Shown: positions 8,261 through 38,503 of the stretch, piece after piece
How the letters are laid out: each line of letters begins with the position of its first letter
Position numbering within the stretch: the stretch's first letter is position 1
Source: Cycloclasticus sp. symbiont of Bathymodiolus heckerae
GTDB taxonomy: Bacteria; Pseudomonadota; Gammaproteobacteria; Methylococcales; Cycloclasticaceae
Length of the DNA: 64,000 nt
Direction of reading: 5' to 3'
Assembly: GCA_002101235.1 (NCBI GenBank)
Contig: LWTL01000119.1
Coordinates: 1-64,000 of the forward strand
Notes under the pieces: generated by a model
Seen by the model: the letters and a program-made list of their open reading frames with translations, nothing else
Databases searched by the model: none
Told to the model about the DNA's origin: nothing
Translations under genes and position numbers: made by a program

Positions 8261-9168
8261 GGCTTCTTTTTTTGTTTCGCACGCGGATGCGCTTTATCGT
8301 AAACCGATGCTAAGTGCTGAAAATCTAGGTGTGTATAAACTTGCGTAGTACTGATATTGCTGTGACCTAAAAGCTCTTGTACCGCCCTTAAATCTTGGCT
8401 CGACTCAAGCATATGACTAGCAAATGAGTGACGCAACATATGCGGGTATAAGCGCCCTTGAATCCTCTGTTTTTTTCGCCAGCGTTCCAAACGCGACTGG
8501 ATACCTCGTGTCGTTAAACGCGCACCTGTTTGCCCAATAAACAACGCCATCTCATCGGTTTTAAACTCCCTTCCCCTAACAGATAACCAAACACGAATAG
8601 CCTCAACCGCTTTACCTCCTAACGGTAATAAACGTGACTTATTCCCTTTACCATTAACGACATGAACGGTTTTTCCTCCAAGGTCAATATCCATTAAATT
8701 AACATTCGCCAATTCACTAACTCGCAAACCAGATGAATATAATAGCTCCCACATCGCCACATCACGTATTTCCAAAGAATCCACAGGCTGAGCATTTAAC
8801 AGCGCATTCACCTGATCCACATCCAGCACGTGAGGCAGTGGTTTTGCTGCTTTTGGCGCACGGATACCCGCTGCTGGATTATTGGGCAGTTGCTTAGCTT
8901 TAATTAGGAAATCAAAAAAGCTTCGGCAAGCAGACAGCTCACGCTGGAGGCTTCTACTGCTCAAACCATCTCTGTGGCGTTCAGCTATAAATCGACGGAC
9001 ATGGTGTCCATTCAGCTCCTTCCATGTTGCTAGACTTTCCTTATCACAATATAAAGCCAATTGCGCCAAGTCACGCGTATATGCTTTTAGTGTATGAGGG
9101 GATAATCGACGCTCTACTCTTAGAACATCTAAAAACTGCTGACAGACATCAACAGCGGGCTGATCCAT
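8257..9168 (-). CDS. xerC: XerC, site-specific tyrosine recombinase
   Basis: A 303-residue tyrosine recombinase that, with XerD, resolves chromosome dimers at dif. The N-terminal SAM-like core-binding domain (about 5-90) is followed by the catalytic domain. Visible catalytic residues are Arg in SSGLRVSEL, Lys in VNGKGNKSR, HxxR in HMLRHSFA, His in LLGHSNIST and the nucleophile Tyr in TQVYTHLD. The context DUF484-xerC downstream of dapF is the standard gammaproteobacterial order and separates this gene from phage integrases. No dif site was seen in the window. Confidence 0.96.
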   Translation of the reverse strand: MDQPAVDVCQQFLDVLRVERRLSPHTLKAYTRDLAQLALYCDKESLATWKELNGHHVRRFIAERHRDGLSSRSLQRELSACRSFFDFLIKAKQLPNNPAAGIRAPKAAKPLPHVLDVDQVNALLNAQPVDSLEIRDVAMWELLYSSGLRVSELANVNLMDIDLGGKTVHVVNGKGNKSRLLPLGGKAVEAIRVWLSVRGREFKTDEMALFIGQTGARLTTRGIQSRLERWRKKQRIQGRLYPHMLRHSFASHMLESSQDLRAVQELLGHSNISTTQVYTHLDFQHLASVYDKAHPRAKQKKKP

Positions 9169-14437: not shown

Positions 14438-14917
14438 TTATTGCCTAAACGAAGCGTGGCAGCTTACGCAAGACGTCATCGTTGTATTAAGCGCACGTAA
14501 TGATGCCTGAAGATCACCCTCTTTAAGGGTTTTTGCTAATTCATCACCACTTTTGTGAAAAGCCATTCCCATTGCTTTAAACGTTTCGTTTTCAAAGCTA
14601 TTGCACATCTTCATCATTTTTTCGTTCGAACCCAACTGTTCACTGGCAATAATAGACGCGCTATCAAAATCATTGTCTGACAACGACAGAACAATTTTAC
14701 GAACCGCATCAAGGTGAGCACGCATATTCGCCAATTGATGCTGCTTCATCATCGGTGATAAATTAAGTGAAACCCGACTGTCTTCAGTAAAGCCGCCTAC
14801 CTTCACCCCATGCATCATTTTATGGTGCATATCTCCGTGCTTCATTTCTGCCGAATGCGCAACACCCGTCAACCCTATTAATAAAGTCATCACCAAACCT
14901 AACTTTTTACTCATCAT
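14438..14917 (-). CDS. Cytochrome c' (class II cytochrome c)
   Basis: A 159-residue periplasmic protein with a signal peptide (about residues 1-23, ending AHSA) and one heme-binding CVSCH motif at residues 150-154, close to the C-terminus. The C-terminal heme motif and helical character fit the four-helix class II cytochrome c' family, which binds NO or CO at five-coordinate heme or acts in electron transfer. An AAGGAG lies before the ATG pair. An FNR/Anr-like box 60-75 bases upstream suggests oxygen or NO control. Confidence 0.85.
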   Translation of the reverse strand: MMSKKLGLVMTLLIGLTGVAHSAEMKHGDMHHKMMHGVKVGGFTEDSRVSLNLSPMMKQHQLANMRAHLDAVRKIVLSLSDNDFDSASIIASEQLGSNEKMMKMCNSFENETFKAMGMAFHKSGDELAKTLKEGDLQASLRALNTTMTSCVSCHASFRQ

Positions 14918-14949
14918 CTACTTTCTCCTTATTTCATCGCTACGCTTTA

Positions 14950-14991
14950 ATGCTAACAATTCCTCAAACAAAATTTATTGACTAATATCAA
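14950..14991 (-). promoter_or_regulatory. FNR/Anr-type box and promoter of cytochrome c'
   Basis: On the minus strand TTGATATTAGTCAA (14991-14978) matches the FNR/Anr consensus TTGAT-N4-ATCAA at 9 of 10 positions. Its centre is 29-30 bases upstream of a TAGCAT hexamer (14955-14950), the geometry of a class II site centred near -41.5. The predicted transcript would start about 25 bases before the ATG at 14917. No gene for the regulator lies in this window. Confidence 0.6.
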
Positions 14992-15118
14992 TTTATCTCT
15001 ATTTATTGTTCACGCCATCTACTCCTGCATTAAAGCTCTCACCGACTGCATCTAGCCCAATAAAAACAACCCAATCTCGCTCTTTATAATATTCTTATTC
15101 TTTTTTCATATATGCTTA

Positions 15119-15147
15119 TTGACATTAGTTATATCAAGAGTTAATAT
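15119..15147 (+). promoter_or_regulatory. Sigma-70-type promoter of the DUF1264 gene
   Basis: A perfect -35 TTGACA (15119-15124), 17 bases, then TAATAT (15142-15147). It lies 65 bases upstream of the DUF1264 ATG, which has AAGGAAG at 15202-15208. It looks like a strong constitutive promoter, consistent with an abundant periplasmic product. Confidence 0.7.
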
Positions 15148-15212
15148 ATCCTCGCTAAAAAGCAAACTGAACGTTTGAGACACGTTCATTCACAACACAA
15201 AAAGGAAGAACA

Positions 15213-15803
15213 ATGAAATTATTGAAAACAATATTGGTAGCTGTCAGCTTATTGAGCGCAGCTGCTGTCGTAAATGCTGCTGATCATAGCGGTCATGACC
15301 ACGCAGGCGCTACCGTACAAAAACTGTACAACGAAACAATGAATCCACGCCAAAACGAATACCCTAACCACCTAGGCTTTAACGATTTACACATTCAAGC
15401 TATTCGTCATATGGCTCCAGACACGCACTCAAACAACGACCCGTTACTTCAAGTAATCGTTCACCATCATTGTAAAGCGTACGAAGACAGCACTTTAATC
15501 TGCATGATGTTTCACACCGGCATGAAAGACCAAGACAAGCCAATGGGTTTTGAATACATCATCCCAACAGCTATGTATGAAGCATTGCCTGAAGAAGAAA
15601 AAAGATACTGGCACTACCATTTAACTGAAGTACCCCGTGCTAAAGCAACATTCCCAGATTTAACAGCAGAAGAAGCTGCCAAAATCCTACCTGTTGTTAA
15701 CGAAACTTACGGCAAAGTTGTTTACTTCAAAAAACCACATGACGAACTGCCTTTAGGCGAACCGTATGTTCTTATCGTTCAAGACATGCCAGAGCAAGAC
15801 TAA
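15213..15803 (+). CDS. Periplasmic DUF1264 (oil-body-associated-like) protein
   Basis: A 196-residue secreted protein with a signal peptide (residues 1-22, ending VNA) followed by a His-rich start (DHSGHDHAG). The body matches the DUF1264 family, best known from plant oil-body-associated proteins and fungal homologues: a HHHCKAYEDSTLICMMFHTG core and a YIIPTAMYEALPEEEKRYWHYH block. Function in bacteria is unknown. The many His residues could bind metal or heme, which is inference. It has its own strong promoter and ends at a 14-bp stem terminator that directly precedes the diheme peroxidase gene. Confidence 0.85.
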   Translation: MKLLKTILVAVSLLSAAAVVNAADHSGHDHAGATVQKLYNETMNPRQNEYPNHLGFNDLHIQAIRHMAPDTHSNNDPLLQVIVHHHCKAYEDSTLICMMFHTGMKDQDKPMGFEYIIPTAMYEALPEEEKRYWHYHLTEVPRAKATFPDLTAEEAAKILPVVNETYGKVVYFKKPHDELPLGEPYVLIVQDMPEQD

Positions 15804-15847
15804 GTTTGGCAAACCGACCCCTTAGAGATACCCTTCTCTAACTACTA

Positions 15848-15887
15848 GCACCTACGGTACACTTATGTACCGTAGGTGCATTTTTTT
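15848..15887 (+). terminator. Perfect 14-bp hairpin terminator abutting the next start codon
   Basis: GCACCTACGGTACA (15848-15861) pairs perfectly with TGTACCGTAGGTGC (15866-15879) around CTTA, followed by A and seven T (15881-15887). The peroxidase ATG is the very next base. The 3' arm holds AGGTG (15874-15878), nine bases before that ATG, the only Shine-Dalgarno-like sequence available. A smaller inverted repeat, TTAGAGA/TCTCTAA, precedes it at 15822-15841. Confidence 0.9.
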
Positions 15888-16949
15888 ATGAAAAACATAT
15901 TGCTTAGCTTACTACTTTTAACATTCGCCTCAACCGTATTCGGCGAGCGAATAGTTGGGTTACCCGCTGTAAAGTTCCCTAGCGATAACCCGCAAACACC
16001 CAAAAAGGTTGCCCTCGGAAAAAAGCTATTTAACGATGTTCGCTTTAGCTCTACCGGCACCATCAGCTGCGCAAGCTGCCACCACAGTAATAAATCATTT
16101 ACAGACGGGCAGCCACAGGCTATTGGTATTCACGGCTTAATCGGCAAAAGAAATTCACCAACCATTACAAACTCTGCATTTTCAACATCCTTCTTTCACG
16201 ATGGCCGCAGAAAAACATTAGAAGAGCAGGCACTAGATCCGCTCACAAACCCCATAGAACACGGATTAAAAGACCACTCGACCGTTCTTAACGTTATCCA
16301 CAGTGATTTTTCTTACTTAAAAGACTTCCTCACTGTTTACGGTATAACCGCTGAAGAAATAACACTCGGCCATGTGGCAAAATCCATCGCCAGTTACGAG
16401 CGTACATTATTGTCTGGCAACTCCCCATTTGACCAATATTTTTTCAAAGGCCAACGCCCCGTATTAAGCGAAAGCGCCGCACGCGGCCTCCGCATATTTA
16501 GGCGTAAAGCAAATTGCGCAAACTGCCACGAAATAAGCTGGGATCACGCCCTGTTCACCGACAACCGCTTTTACAATATAGGCATAGGTTTTGGCGAGCT
16601 ACGACTCATATTGCCCACTTTCCTAGAACACGCTAAAACCAATGTTGCAAATGCAGTCTCAAACCTCAGCAGCAACCAGAAGGTAGAGCTGGGACGTTTT
16701 GCAGTAACCCACCAACTAAAAGACATTGGCGCCTACAAAACACCCACGCTAAGAAACATAGACCTAACCGCACCGTATATGCACGACGGCAGCATAAAAA
16801 CACTAGAAGACGTTGTTGAATACTACGACAAAGGCGGCGACTCAAATTCATTTTTAAACCCCGCCATATTCCCACTAAGTTTATCTAAACAAGAAAAAAC
16901 TGATCTAGTTTCTTTTTTAAAAAGCTTGACCAGTTTAACTACGCAATAA
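15888..16949 (+). CDS. Diheme cytochrome c peroxidase (CcpA/MauG family)
   Basis: A 353-residue periplasmic diheme protein with a signal peptide (about 1-19). It has two c-type heme motifs, CASCHH at 61-65 and CANCH at 210-214, spaced as in the bacterial CcpA/MauG family. It also has the conserved SFFHDGRRKTLEEQALDPL block and a C-terminal APYMHDGSIKTLEDVV segment that includes the Tyr/Met positions distinguishing MauG from peroxidases. It probably reduces H2O2 with cytochrome c electrons, though a MauG-like oxidase is not excluded. I chose the ATG at 15888 over the GTG at 15876 because it starts the signal peptide. No separate promoter is evident, so it may rely on read-through from the DUF1264 gene. 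Confidence 0.9.
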   Translation: MKNILLSLLLLTFASTVFGERIVGLPAVKFPSDNPQTPKKVALGKKLFNDVRFSSTGTISCASCHHSNKSFTDGQPQAIGIHGLIGKRNSPTITNSAFSTSFFHDGRRKTLEEQALDPLTNPIEHGLKDHSTVLNVIHSDFSYLKDFLTVYGITAEEITLGHVAKSIASYERTLLSGNSPFDQYFFKGQRPVLSESAARGLRIFRRKANCANCHEISWDHALFTDNRFYNIGIGFGELRLILPTFLEHAKTNVANAVSNLSSNQKVELGRFAVTHQLKDIGAYKTPTLRNIDLTAPYMHDGSIKTLEDVVEYYDKGGDSNSFLNPAIFPLSLSKQEKTDLVSFLKSLTSLTTQ

Positions 16950-17029
16950 TATCGGGCGTCAATATTCGGTAAAAAACGGGCTTCAAACGGCTTACCTATT
17001 TTTATTACGTAATCATTTTCACACCTATA

Positions 17030-17222
17030 ATCTAACGTTTAAACTTTGGTAAAGAAGGCGTAAGTTCAGATCTATGTGTAGTAGCACCAAAAAACATGTT
17101 CTTGATTTGATTGGCCGTATTTAGATAGAAAATCTACAAAATGATAAGCATACCTTTTAATATAACCTCAACTGGGTTCTCTGCTCTATCGCTTCGCACG
17201 CCCGTTAACTTAAACGTTAGGC
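17030..17222 (+). repeat. Candidate integron attC site preceding an orphan gene
   Basis: The 5' end ATCTAAC (17030-17036) fits the attC R'' box RYYYAAC, and the 3' end GTTAGGC (17216-17222) fits the R' box GTTRRRY. The flanks form an 11-bp perfect inverted repeat, CTAACGTTTAA (17032-17042) and TTAAACGTTAG (17210-17220). The 3' side (CGTTAACTTAAACGTTAGGC) closely resembles the ends of known attC sites such as that of aadA cassettes. At about 193 bp it is long for an attC (usually about 57-141 bp), so it may be composite. No integrase gene is in the window. Confidence 0.65.
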
Positions 17223-17228
17223 AATAAA

Positions 17229-17636
17229 ATGATGCAACGATGGTTTTTATTAGAACCATTCCCAAACACATGGAAATGGGTATGGCTTATGGCAATAATT
17301 GTATATGCCACCTCAATGATAAGCTCAATAAGCTTAATAGGAGATATTCCTGCTGGTCTTGTAATAATCTCTTTATATGGACTGGCATATGAGAGAGCAA
17401 TATTTTTTTTAAAGTTTTGGAAGTGTATTTTATGGGCAATTTCTATTTTTTTAATCCTGACTTTATCCACAGCGCTTATGGCTTTAATTAAAAATATAGA
17501 ATCTATAATAAATATAGGTCTTTCATTATCAATATCTGATTTTGTGATAATAACCTTAATGTTATTGTTTTTTATTCTTCAATTAAGAGGCTTATTTCTA
17601 TATGCATACCAACGTAATGAAATATGGAACAAATAG
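17229..17636 (+). CDS. Orphan hydrophobic protein in an integron-like cassette
   Basis: A 135-residue, strongly hydrophobic protein with about four predicted membrane segments and an N-terminal WxLLEPFPNTWKWVW stretch. I recognise no family. The ATG lies six bases after GTTAGGC, so the attC end (TTAGG) doubles as ribosome-binding sequence, typical of integron gene cassettes. The gene is clearly more A+T-rich than its neighbours and differs in codon use, consistent with transfer. Twelve bases after its stop come two tandem GCCTAAC heptamers, the start of a second, apparently truncated attC. Confidence 0.65.
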   Translation: MMQRWFLLEPFPNTWKWVWLMAIIVYATSMISSISLIGDIPAGLVIISLYGLAYERAIFFLKFWKCILWAISIFLILTLSTALMALIKNIESIINIGLSLSISDFVIITLMLLFFILQLRGLFLYAYQRNEIWNK

Positions 17637-17648
17637 TTACGACTCTAC

Positions 17649-17662
17649 GCCTAACGCCTAAC
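17649..17662 (+). repeat. Tandem GCCTAAC, remnant of a downstream attC
   Basis: GCCTAAC occurs twice back to back (17649-17655 and 17656-17662). It is the exact complement of the GTTAGGC that ends the upstream attC and fits RYYYAAC. No matching GTTRRRY follows before cyaA, so the second attC looks truncated or decayed. Confidence 0.55.
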
Positions 17663-17731
17663 CAAGAAATCAAACCATTCACTGTTCACTAGGACTCAAA
17701 GAAAGACACCTCAAGACTTTTATTAAATTCG

Positions 17732-20572
17732 CTATACATTCAGCTTTCTCTCAACCTCTTGTTTATAATTAAGATAGTGGATTGTTTGTAACGACGTACC
17801 TGCAGTTACGCCAAGCTCTTCATTCGTCACATCAATATCGGTAATGTAAGCAGGGTAATCGCCTTCTCCTTTTCTCTCTTTTCGAATATAGGCTGATGCT
17901 TCGTTATACAGCTCTTTGCCGTAATCTAAACTTGAGAACGTTTGCTCATTACAGTAAACGTGAAATTCTTTTGTTTGCCCATCATAAGCGACTCGAACAT
18001 TCATTCCCGCATTCTTGCTTTTCTCGGACACGTTCACTTTTTTTAGCCCCCAGTTCTGGCGAATTTTCTCTATTCGGTAGCACTCCATTTCCAAATCAAA
18101 CCCCATATCATCTTGCTCATACGCTGCTAAACGGCGGCGGTGCATAATGCTTTCAAGCAGCTCTTTGTACGACTGTAATAATGATTCTTCACTAAGGAAT
18201 GGGTGCTCCTTAAAGAATAACGAGCCCTTTTCATCCAAAATATAAACTTGCGCTACTGCGTCATTCAATTGCGTGTAATAAAGCTGAATAAGGCCCACCT
18301 TATGATGCCCGCAAATAACAGGGAGCAATTCTCTTTGATCTATGAAGTTATCAAATTTAATTGGACTAAAAACTGATTGGGGCTTAGATAGCTCTGCTAA
18401 TAACTGCTTTTGCGTCACGACAAGCGATGTCATTTTCCTGTCTTTAACCTGCATGATACAAAAGGAACGTGCTGACTGAATCACCAGCCTCGGTGACATT
18501 TTTTGGCTGTAACGTTTAAAAACAGCTGCTATTTCTTTAAACAGCATCTGTATGCGCTTTGATACACTCATCGCCCGCGGCGAGTTATAACTGCTACAAA
18601 CCAACGTGGGTAACTCTTGTCGCTCGCCTAATGTTTTATGGTCAAATATTTCACAAAGGCAAGCCATCAAACCGCCCATCCCGTCATATTTACCCACAAC
18701 AATTTCATTCCATGAATTACGAAACATCATATCGACACTTTGAATTAAATTGCGCCGTTGCGAACCAAAGCTGAGAGCATCCGAACGCTCACTAGTTAAG
18801 TTAATCCCCTTATCGGTAAAATCACTCATTGAGTCTATGCCGGAGTTAATAACTAGCATGACATTTGTTACAACAGGCTTATAACGATACGCATCCAGAT
18901 CTGCCGGTTTTTTTGGCAAGGTACTGAAAAACAGAGCGACACTTCGCAAGGTTTGCGCCACTTCTCTTGAATTTATTTGGCTTGCGCCTGGGTCTAGGGC
19001 AATCTTTGTTTTATCGCCCAATACGCCGTAATCTACACACCACGCCAGCAGTCCAATCAAACCATGCGCTTGACGAATAAATTGTTCCTGATTATTAGTA
19101 TCTAGCCGGTTTAACAACCAACTTACTTGTCCATTTTGAGCCACATGCTGCTTCAAAATAACCTTACTTTCTTTCCGAACACGCGTGTTTTTTATCGTAG
19201 AACGCTCAAGCTTACTGGGCCGCTTCTCAAATGCTGCGTTGAGTTTTCGGCCTAATAAAGTCAGTTCTTCGCTATCCCTTTTTGACTTATCAATGCGTTC
19301 TTTTGCAAACCGCATTAACAACCGGTAGTTATGTGTAAGCTCATTGGTTAGCCGCTCTTTCTCTTGCTGAACTTGCGAAATATCCCACTCTTTATGCTCT
19401 AACGCGTTTTCTAAATAATCCGGCAATGGAAGCCACTGCTTTAACATGTCTGTAAATACTTCTTGCCGCCAATCGTGCTTGGCGCCGTTCCGGTGCTCAT
19501 TCAATTTACTATAAAAACAGTAACGCATTAAGTTCAAACGCTCAGGCTCATTCTTCTTTACAAAATACGCCTCCAGCACATCGTATAAAATCAAATAGGC
19601 ATCCAGCTTATTCGCATCACTCTCACCGGCATAAACACGCTGTTTCATTTGCAATGCAGCCCAGTGAGACTCTAGATACTGGTCAACGTAAGATTCCATT
19701 AACATCAGTTTTAATAACGACTTATACGGCGAGTCGATGGCTTTATACAAGTGCCAAAATGATGCGCCCAGAAATTCTTCTGCAGGTACATTTTCAAGGC
19801 CACCAAAATCGATAACGTCATGCTGATCAATAAAGCGTTGCGTTACTAAATTATCAACAAACGCTTGATAATTACTTTCCTCTTCCGGCGGCACTAACCA
19901 CCACACAGGGTAACGCCCTGCCACATAAAGCGCCGTGCGATAAAACTCTTCAAGTAATAGGTGATGCTGTGTACTGCCACTACTTTCTACCGACAATGGC
20001 GTGGCTGCACCGTGTTTAAACTGTTCGGCATTCATTAAGAAGAAATGCACCTCCAAACCAAGCGTTTCAGCCCACTTTTCAATGTCGGAGGCCTTTTCCT
20101 CTAATAACTTTAATTCTTTCCCTGGCAAGTTTGGCGCGTGACACAACCACAAGTCCATATCACTACCTTTTACATAAGCAATACTGCCCACACTGCCCAT
20201 CAAGTAAAGTGATTCTATACCGAAAGAACGCTTCGCTCGTTTACTATAAACAAAGCCTTTCCCTAACTTCTTAGCTTTTTCTATAGAGAGCTTACTTGGC
20301 GCATAATCCGCTATGCCCGCAGGTGTTTTGCTGGAAACATAACCCGGTAAAACAGGGTGATTAACATGAAATAACAAGGGGAGTAGTTCGAGAAATATTT
20401 TCTGGCGAGGGGTTACCGCATCTAACGCTCTTTGCATTTTCAATTTATGCAGGTTTAAAAAGCGCTGTTTAATTAGTCGTATATCTTTCTTGCTGATTTG
20501 CCCATCTGGGCCTACAAGGTTAACGCTTTTTAAGTGACGCTCTTGGCTGGGCTGTTTAACTGAATTAACCAT
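17732..20572 (-). CDS. cyaA: CyaA, class I adenylate cyclase
   Basis: A 946-residue class I (enterobacterial-type) adenylate cyclase that makes cAMP for CRP. The N-terminal catalytic domain shows the nucleotidyltransferase signature GSVGS at 126-130 with metal-binding Asp residues in SDMDLW (138 and 140). It is followed by the long C-terminal regulatory region typical of the family (E. coli 848, Pseudomonas about 950). No crp gene is in the window. It is preceded 3 nt upstream by a degenerate GGDEF gene, so the two are almost certainly co-transcribed. Confidence 0.95.
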   Translation of the reverse strand: MVNSVKQPSQERHLKSVNLVGPDGQISKKDIRLIKQRFLNLHKLKMQRALDAVTPRQKIFLELLPLLFHVNHPVLPGYVSSKTPAGIADYAPSKLSIEKAKKLGKGFVYSKRAKRSFGIESLYLMGSVGSIAYVKGSDMDLWLCHAPNLPGKELKLLEEKASDIEKWAETLGLEVHFFLMNAEQFKHGAATPLSVESSGSTQHHLLLEEFYRTALYVAGRYPVWWLVPPEEESNYQAFVDNLVTQRFIDQHDVIDFGGLENVPAEEFLGASFWHLYKAIDSPYKSLLKLMLMESYVDQYLESHWAALQMKQRVYAGESDANKLDAYLILYDVLEAYFVKKNEPERLNLMRYCFYSKLNEHRNGAKHDWRQEVFTDMLKQWLPLPDYLENALEHKEWDISQVQQEKERLTNELTHNYRLLMRFAKERIDKSKRDSEELTLLGRKLNAAFEKRPSKLERSTIKNTRVRKESKVILKQHVAQNGQVSWLLNRLDTNNQEQFIRQAHGLIGLLAWCVDYGVLGDKTKIALDPGASQINSREVAQTLRSVALFFSTLPKKPADLDAYRYKPVVTNVMLVINSGIDSMSDFTDKGINLTSERSDALSFGSQRRNLIQSVDMMFRNSWNEIVVGKYDGMGGLMACLCEIFDHKTLGERQELPTLVCSSYNSPRAMSVSKRIQMLFKEIAAVFKRYSQKMSPRLVIQSARSFCIMQVKDRKMTSLVVTQKQLLAELSKPQSVFSPIKFDNFIDQRELLPVICGHHKVGLIQLYYTQLNDAVAQVYILDEKGSLFFKEHPFLSEESLLQSYKELLESIMHRRRLAAYEQDDMGFDLEMECYRIEKIRQNWGLKKVNVSEKSKNAGMNVRVAYDGQTKEFHVYCNEQTFSSLDYGKELYNEASAYIRKERKGEGDYPAYITDIDVTNEELGVTAGTSLQTIHYLNYKQEVERKLNV

Positions 20573-36463: not shown

Positions 36464-38503
36464 TTAAGCTGCTATTCCCGAGTGTCTCAGTAACGCATCA
36501 ATGTTTGGCTCACGACCTCTAAAGGCCGTAAATAAAGCAAGCGCATCATCACTACCGCCTTTTTCTAAAATGTTATTCAAGAACGAACGCCCCGTTTCCT
36601 CATCAAACACGCCCTTTTCCTCAAACAATGAAAACGCGTCACTCGATAACACCTCCGCCCATTTGTAACTATAATAACCTGCGGCATAACCACCCGCAAA
36701 AATATGAGAAAAACTATTAGGGAAACGATTAAACGCAGGCGTGTTAACAACGCTCACATCGTTTCTTACTTCTTCTAAAATGTCATAAATTTGCGTGGCT
36801 TTTGCTGCGTCATATTCCAAATGCACTCGAAAATCAAATATTGAAAATTCAATTTGGCGAACCATTTGCATCGCTGATTGAAAATTCTTTGCTGCCAACA
36901 TTTTTTCAAACATTTCAGCTGGTAGCTGTTCGCCGGTTTGATAATGCCCCGAAATTAGTGCCATTACTTCCGGTTGCCAGCACCAGTTTTCCATAAATTG
37001 GCTCGGCAGTTCAACGGCATCCCATTCCACACCATGAATGCCTGAAACACTTAAATAATCAACCTTCGTTAACATGTGGTGCAAGCCATGGCCAAATTCA
37101 TGGAACAATGTTTCCACTTCACCATGCGTTAATAGTGATGGGTCGTCACCTATTGGCGGCGTAAAGTTACATGTTAGGTAGGCGACTGGCGACTGAACAC
37201 CTTCGACCTTTTTAAATCGGGTCACGCATTCATCCATCCATGCACCGCCTCTTTTGTGCGGGCGCGCATACAAATCAATATAAAAACGGCCTCGTTGCAT
37301 ACCCTCTTTGTCTGTAATAACAAAAAACTGCACGTCTTTATGCCACTTATCTACATCGGTAGATTCAACAATTTTAATTCCATAGAGCTTTTCTACGACT
37401 GTAAACATCCCTGTTAACACGCGGTTAGCTGGGAAGTAAGGCTTAACTTCTTCTTGTGAAAACTGATAACGCGCTTCACGTAATTTTTCAGAAAAGTACG
37501 CCACGTCCCACGATTCAATATCACCCACATGACCTTGTTCTTTAGCAAACTTAACCAACGCTGCAAAGTCTTCCTTTGCCATAGATAACGACCTTTCCGC
37601 CAACTGGTTTAAAAAGTCCAATACGTCTACAGGCTGTTTCGCCATTTTGGTTGCTAACGATAGATCTGCATAACTTTCAAAACCTAACAGTTGCGCTTTC
37701 TCATGACGCAAACCAACAATTTTAGACATTGTTTCTGTGTTGTCCCAGTCGCTGCTACCATCACTTTGCTCAGAGGCTCGGGTAACAAATGCTCGATGAA
37801 GCTCATAACGCAAATCGCGATTCCCCGCATACGTCATGACCGCCATATAACAAGGAAATTCCAACGTTAGCAGCCAACCTTCTTTATTTTTTTGCTCTGC
37901 TGTCTGCTTTAGCAAATCCATGGTCGATTCTGGCAAGCCTTTTAGCTCACTTTCATCCGTAACTGACTTGCTCCACGCATTCGTGGCATCCATTATATTT
38001 TCTTCAAACTGGTTGGTTAACGTCGATAATTGCTGCGATATTTCCATATAGCGCTGCTTCTTGTCTTCTGCTAATGCAACGCCAGAAAGCTCAAAATCAC
38101 GCAGAGAGTTATCTATAATTTTTTTCTGCGCTGTATCGAGTTTTTTATACTCATCGCCTTCTTTAATAGATAAGTAGGCCAAATAGAGCACCTTATTTTG
38201 GCCAATCTCAGTTGAATATTCACTGAGCTTGGGCAAGCAATTCGAATATGCTTCACGCCACTCATCATTATTCATTACTGAATTAAGGTGACCAATGGGC
38301 GACCAAACGCGGCTCAAGTAATCGTCGATTAGCTCCATTGGATACACCAGGTTATTCCAACTGTATGATGCTCCCTTTTCTAGCAAACTGGCTATTTTTT
38401 TCTTATTAGCAACAAGAATCTCATCAATGGCTGGCTCAATATCTGCAGCCTTCAACATACTAAAATTCGGCAACTCGAAGTCTTCTAACAAAGGGTTTTT
38501 CAT
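36464..38503 (-). CDS. prlC: Oligopeptidase A (M3 metallopeptidase)
   Basis: A 679-residue zinc metallopeptidase of family M3 (E. coli OpdA/PrlC 680) that degrades signal peptides and oligopeptides in the cytoplasm. The zinc motif HEFGH lies near residue 470 in ETLFHEFGHGLHHML, with the third-ligand Glu in HGVEWDAVELPSQF. An inverted repeat GCGTTC/GAACGC (38512-38530) sits just upstream of the start. Confidence 0.96.
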   Translation of the reverse strand: MKNPLLEDFELPNFSMLKAADIEPAIDEILVANKKKIASLLEKGASYSWNNLVYPMELIDDYLSRVWSPIGHLNSVMNNDEWREAYSNCLPKLSEYSTEIGQNKVLYLAYLSIKEGDEYKKLDTAQKKIIDNSLRDFELSGVALAEDKKQRYMEISQQLSTLTNQFEENIMDATNAWSKSVTDESELKGLPESTMDLLKQTAEQKNKEGWLLTLEFPCYMAVMTYAGNRDLRYELHRAFVTRASEQSDGSSDWDNTETMSKIVGLRHEKAQLLGFESYADLSLATKMAKQPVDVLDFLNQLAERSLSMAKEDFAALVKFAKEQGHVGDIESWDVAYFSEKLREARYQFSQEEVKPYFPANRVLTGMFTVVEKLYGIKIVESTDVDKWHKDVQFFVITDKEGMQRGRFYIDLYARPHKRGGAWMDECVTRFKKVEGVQSPVAYLTCNFTPPIGDDPSLLTHGEVETLFHEFGHGLHHMLTKVDYLSVSGIHGVEWDAVELPSQFMENWCWQPEVMALISGHYQTGEQLPAEMFEKMLAAKNFQSAMQMVRQIEFSIFDFRVHLEYDAAKATQIYDILEEVRNDVSVVNTPAFNRFPNSFSHIFAGGYAAGYYSYKWAEVLSSDAFSLFEEKGVFDEETGRSFLNNILEKGGSDDALALFTAFRGREPNIDALLRHSGIAA

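Follow-up and report, generated by a model that had tools for sequence, protein, structure and literature searches.

Integron gene cassettes and attC sites are known to occur away from complete integrons in several forms. A single attC site lacking an integron-integrase is termed a SALIN, and 115 of these are found across 41 Shewanella genomes (PMC9229058). A cluster of attC sites lacking an integrase is a CALIN, as defined in IntegronFinder (PMC9024848), and integrase-less clusters occur in Xanthomonas (PMC12444791). The insertion of integron cassettes at attG sites by the integrase IntI is also established (Loot et al. 2024, as cited in PMC12901181 and PMC12444791).

We have analyzed a 64-kb stretch of DNA (the window), which lies on contig C119 of the 2.13-Mb assembly, in 123 contigs, of a marine Cycloclasticus bacterium. 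It contains an integron-type cassette that shares features with each of these. Like a SALIN it is one orphan cassette gene separate from any integrase, with IntI elsewhere in the genome, but here the attC that belongs to the cassette is only half present and there is a second, damaged attC upstream. It resembles a CALIN in that a cassette remnant with no integrase occupies a chromosomal position separate from the intI locus. However, the default CALIN definition needs two detectable attC sites, and neither site here is expected to pass. As in attG insertion, to the extent that this is described in the two citing papers, the cassette lies outside attI/attC arrays and would have been placed by IntI. 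Such an insertion should have unrelated DNA on its left and a complete attC on its right, whereas here the left flank is attC-like and the right end lacks a complete attC. Nor is there an attI beside a first cassette, as in a full integron. The locus is a degraded member of the documented orphan-attC or CALIN-like kind, and stray cassettes are already known.

The cassette lies between two recognizable genes. Upstream is a gene for a di-haem cytochrome c peroxidase of the MauG/CCP family (15876–16949, + strand; Pfam PF03150, E = 2.7e-53), and downstream is cyaA, encoding class I adenylate cyclase (17732–20572, − strand; Pfam PF01295/PF12633). The C-terminus of the latter is an intact KLNV, and the C-termini in 11 congeners are KLN followed by V, I, L, S or A. 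The region 14438–16949, containing cytochrome c′-like, DUF1264 and mauG genes, is a variable block upstream of the cassette; of ten cyaA regions fetched from congeners, only two have DUF1264 and mauG adjoining cyaA. The original prediction that the window holds no integrase was correct, although the same genome has a full IntI on another contig (C117). A tyrosine-recombinase match at 8302–9114 falls below the integron-integrase cut-off and is probably XerC/D. Neither Rfam nor our attI model R2 gives any match within the window.

The cassette gene (17229–17636, + strand, with the stop codon at 17634–17636) encodes a small membrane protein of 135 amino acids. It is A+T-rich as predicted, with 29% G+C compared to 43% for the window. 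The prediction of a four-helix membrane protein of no recognized family also agrees with our analysis. Hydropathy indicates about four hydrophobic segments, AlphaFold2 run on the single sequence gives an all-helical model (mean pLDDT 78.6, pTM 0.36), and no family was found in Pfam, NCBIfam or PADLOC. Searches of genome, plasmid, phage and viral collections did not recover the gene. Distant homologs, all of them weak matches, occur in a few other Gammaproteobacteria and have the motif YG.AY..A....WK in common with the cassette protein; a three-sequence profile found one further relative among 398 genomes. The homolog L104 (1450–1900) lies between two transposase genes directly after CGTTAGGT, and beyond its stop codon there is a left-half-like stretch TCCCAACAAG (8.8 bits), so that it may also be a cassette. 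The homologs L105/L134 and L135 have no clear cassette context, and a match in L019 was dropped on account of internal stop codons within it.

Absence of the gene at this site in relatives was proposed as a check on the original prediction. No match to the protein occurs in 17 congeners. Among ten congener cyaA 3′ regions the neighbor of cyaA is mostly a peroxiredoxin gene. In one genome (G010, locus L045) mauG directly adjoins cyaA with no insert, and another (G012) has a different gene in between. As far as gene order can tell, the comparison supports insertion in the lineage of the window. The cyaA of L045 is only 52% identical to that of the window, and the relatives examined are not close enough to define an empty site to the exact base.

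Two kinds of model were used to search for attC sites. From 51 candidates collected at the integron loci of congeners, 12 that did not resemble true sites were removed by hand before profile building. Nearly all of the remaining 39 have the form NNNTAACAA, a hairpin, then CGTTANNN. From these sites we built one 20-nt profile for each half, left and right, and scanned both strands of the window with the two profiles. A MAFFT alignment of mixed attC sites yielded no consensus fold, and the covariance model (R1) was therefore based on 14 short sites, one of which supplied the structure. In the congeners' loci R1 gave 44 matches at E up to 1, scoring 17–84 bits, many of which are training sites or their array neighbors. 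The score thresholds are our own, and are not those of the attC model of IntegronFinder.

The case for a cassette rests on the half-site profiles and not on the whole-site model. The top right-half match in the window (17203–17222, + strand) scores 21.6 bits, which is higher than all the leave-one-out scores of the 39 known sites (maximum 20.6). The top left-half match on either strand (17656–17675) scores 15.2 bits, where real sites score 6.2–22.6. These two matches bracket a single ORF in the correct order, defining a cassette body that begins at TTAGGC and extends through the R″ box of its own attC (17217–17662, + strand). Their sum is 36.8 bits, similar to the 37–39 of the better real arrays, while 200 shuffles gave a mean of 24.5 (standard deviation 2.6, maximum 32.2) with none reaching the score of the cassette. 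The highest pair score in 28 Pseudomonas loci (415 kb) was 23.3. The arrangement within the element is that of a cassette: a short leader separates GTTRRRY from a single ORF, and an attC left half comes 19 bases after the stop codon. As originally described, the ATG at 17229 is six bases beyond the GTTAGGC at 17216–17222, and tandem GCCTAAC heptamers (17649–17655 and 17656–17662) follow the stop codon. Only the second of these fits an attC left half, the first (+ strand) scoring −10.4. On the − strand, 17649–17662 also resembles a right half, with a score of 14.4 bits.

The proposal of an integron-type cassette outside an integron is thus supported by the half-sites, but the anatomy originally given for the upstream site was wrong. 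The cassette was thought to be preceded by a 193-bp attC (17030–17222), whose RYYYAAC and GTTRRRY ends share an 11-bp inverted repeat. The repeat exists and is perfect (17032–17042 and 17210–17220), yet as evidence for an attC it is close to chance, since 38 of 2000 shuffled versions of the stretch contain one and the window holds 28. The 193-bp site folds no better than shuffled sequences (z = −0.66). The low score of its left end as an attC left half (−7.3 bits) is due to the lack of the AA found after TAAC in the collected sites. From the fold, the profile score and the shuffles, the left arm (17032–17042, + strand) is not an attC end. R1 instead places the start of the site at 17160, and a complete cassette preceded by the 193-bp attC is scarcely credible. 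The site selected (attC_A; 17160–17222, + strand) is the best R1 match in 16500–18200. In the R1 alignment it has all four boxes: R″ (ATATAAC, 17160–17166), L″ (TCAACTGGG, 17168–17176), L′ (CCCGTTAA, 17201–17208) and R′ (GTTAGGC, 17216–17222). Its left spacer is short by about 6 nt, and this is why the site scores only 12.7 bits compared to the 17–84 of known sites. The integrase crossover G|TT would be placed between 17216 and 17217. The covariance search proposed with the original prediction thus gave a poor score and no intact attC, with this one weak match at E = 2.9 over the whole window, and used on its own the whole-site model would have missed the element. The top R1 score in the window is a 28-nt hairpin at 37845–37872 (17.5 bits), which is probably a chance match. 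Downstream, attC_B (17656–17676, + strand) has R″ (GCCTAAC), a 7-nt spacer (CAAGAAA) and L″ (TCAAACC). This is just the left half of the cassette's own attC; there is no right half in 17660–17764, where the best score is −0.3 bits, and R1 gives no match to this site. With a whole-site score that lies within the noise of the window and an inverted repeat near chance expectation, it might be argued that there is no cassette, and that chance matches flank an orphan gene. We consider this very improbable, since the half-site pair score is far beyond that of the shuffles and of 415 kb of other loci, and the independent top right and left halves fall on the same ORF.

The original prediction offered two origins for the element: an insertion at a secondary chromosomal site, or an attC-only (CALIN-like) remnant. 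In the former, IntI would have put a single cassette into an attG-type site in or near the 3′ end of cyaA, so that the left flank would be chromosomal and attC_B once complete. IntI is already established to carry out attG insertion, and joining the left flank TTAAACG to the TTCAGC of cyaA generates the codons AAC GTT TAA, the KLNV-stop end of several congeners. But cyaA already has an intact KLNV-stop, for which another congener uses the same codons, and although insertion into the stop codon itself would rebuild this end, we rejected it because cyaA is already intact. Moreover, the 13 bases to the left of R′ are attC-like, resembling an attC right half so closely that as good a score occurs at only 17 of 956,774 positions, and what is left of a hairpin-like attC reaches back to 17160. 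A right-end R′ with GTT is also absent. Single insertion is therefore unlikely, and the remnant is the better of the two origins. The combination of an attC-like left flank with half an attC on the right favors an array of at least two cassettes.

We conclude that a small array of integron cassettes probably once lay between mauG and cyaA, and that the locus is what remains of it. Against this reading, there is no intact attC, and no close relative with the same neighbors provides a clean empty site. In such an array at least two cassettes would have been placed between mauG and cyaA, either by the IntI of this genome acting in trans or by an earlier IntI. The upstream cassette would have lost its gene, leaving the damaged attC at 17160–17222, the one site that points to its former presence. 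The second has kept the gene for the membrane protein but has lost the right half of its own attC. IntI recombines attC as a folded hairpin of the bottom strand. Judged by their sequences, both sites look too damaged to work, and the cassette is probably frozen in place since neither can form a full hairpin. Our sequence scan found no attI and no convincing promoter at the locus, and no terminator between mauG and the cassette. As mauG is on the same strand, any expression would be by read-through from that gene.

The IntI on contig C117 scores 440.9 bits (cut-off 265). Beside it is an attI-like site ending in TTAACACT|GTTA, followed by the first cassette with its attC; this is a draft genome, in which parts of the integron are lost from view at contig ends. 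IntI scores above the cut-off in 13 of 18 congeners, where attC sites adjoin it. In the closed genomes G008 and G014, attC matches are also scattered around the chromosome. The attI model (95 nt) was made from nine attI regions beside intI. It finds eight attI copies at E < 1e-10 with one full IntI in G008 (integrase-less attI-like sites here include L117, L121, L122, L129, L130 and L131), and six copies with one IntI in G014 (integrase-less sites include L113, L115, L126, L127 and L128). The genome of the window (G000) has five copies and one IntI; these are on C117, C113, C108, C115 and C123 (L010, L125, L123, L124 and L110 respectively), and L010 on C117 adjoins intI. There is no significant IntI match near the 18 stray copies examined (best E = 0.05). 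At least one attC half-site of over 11 bits lies within 3.5 kb downstream in 13 of these 18. L117 and L121 have about 258 bp in common, up to and including the attI site. Seven loci in G008, G004 and G000 have flanks that match those of three stray attI sites of G014 but contain no attI, which suggests that these sites were either inserted in the G014 lineage or lost elsewhere. A second stray cassette is also present in G000 (L107/L110; C123:157390–158002), flanked by a gcvT-like gene and a gene for an FAD-dependent oxidoreductase. It has attI-like sequence, a good attC scoring 45 bits, and a 152-aa gene. By eye, its product resembles the GFA/formaldehyde-activating family.

Many attI copies that lack intI are dispersed in Cycloclasticus genomes, and cassettes often follow them. 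Their function in trans, like the former presence of an attI at the locus in the window, is putative. It is conceivable, though we hold it only tentatively, that these genomes have a distributed integron, in which one integrase would serve several dispersed attI platforms lacking intI, each with its own cassettes, and that the cassette in the window is a decayed station of this kind. We found no description of dispersed integrase-less attI sites in the literature searched, which misses most subscription journals, and their novelty is unproven.

Taken alone, the locus contributes a single degraded orphan cassette together with a small uncharacterized family of membrane proteins. Half-site profiles trained on the attC sites of the genus itself can recover remnants that a whole-site model misses. 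If it is true that the stray attI sites recombine in trans, then an integron need not be one locus.
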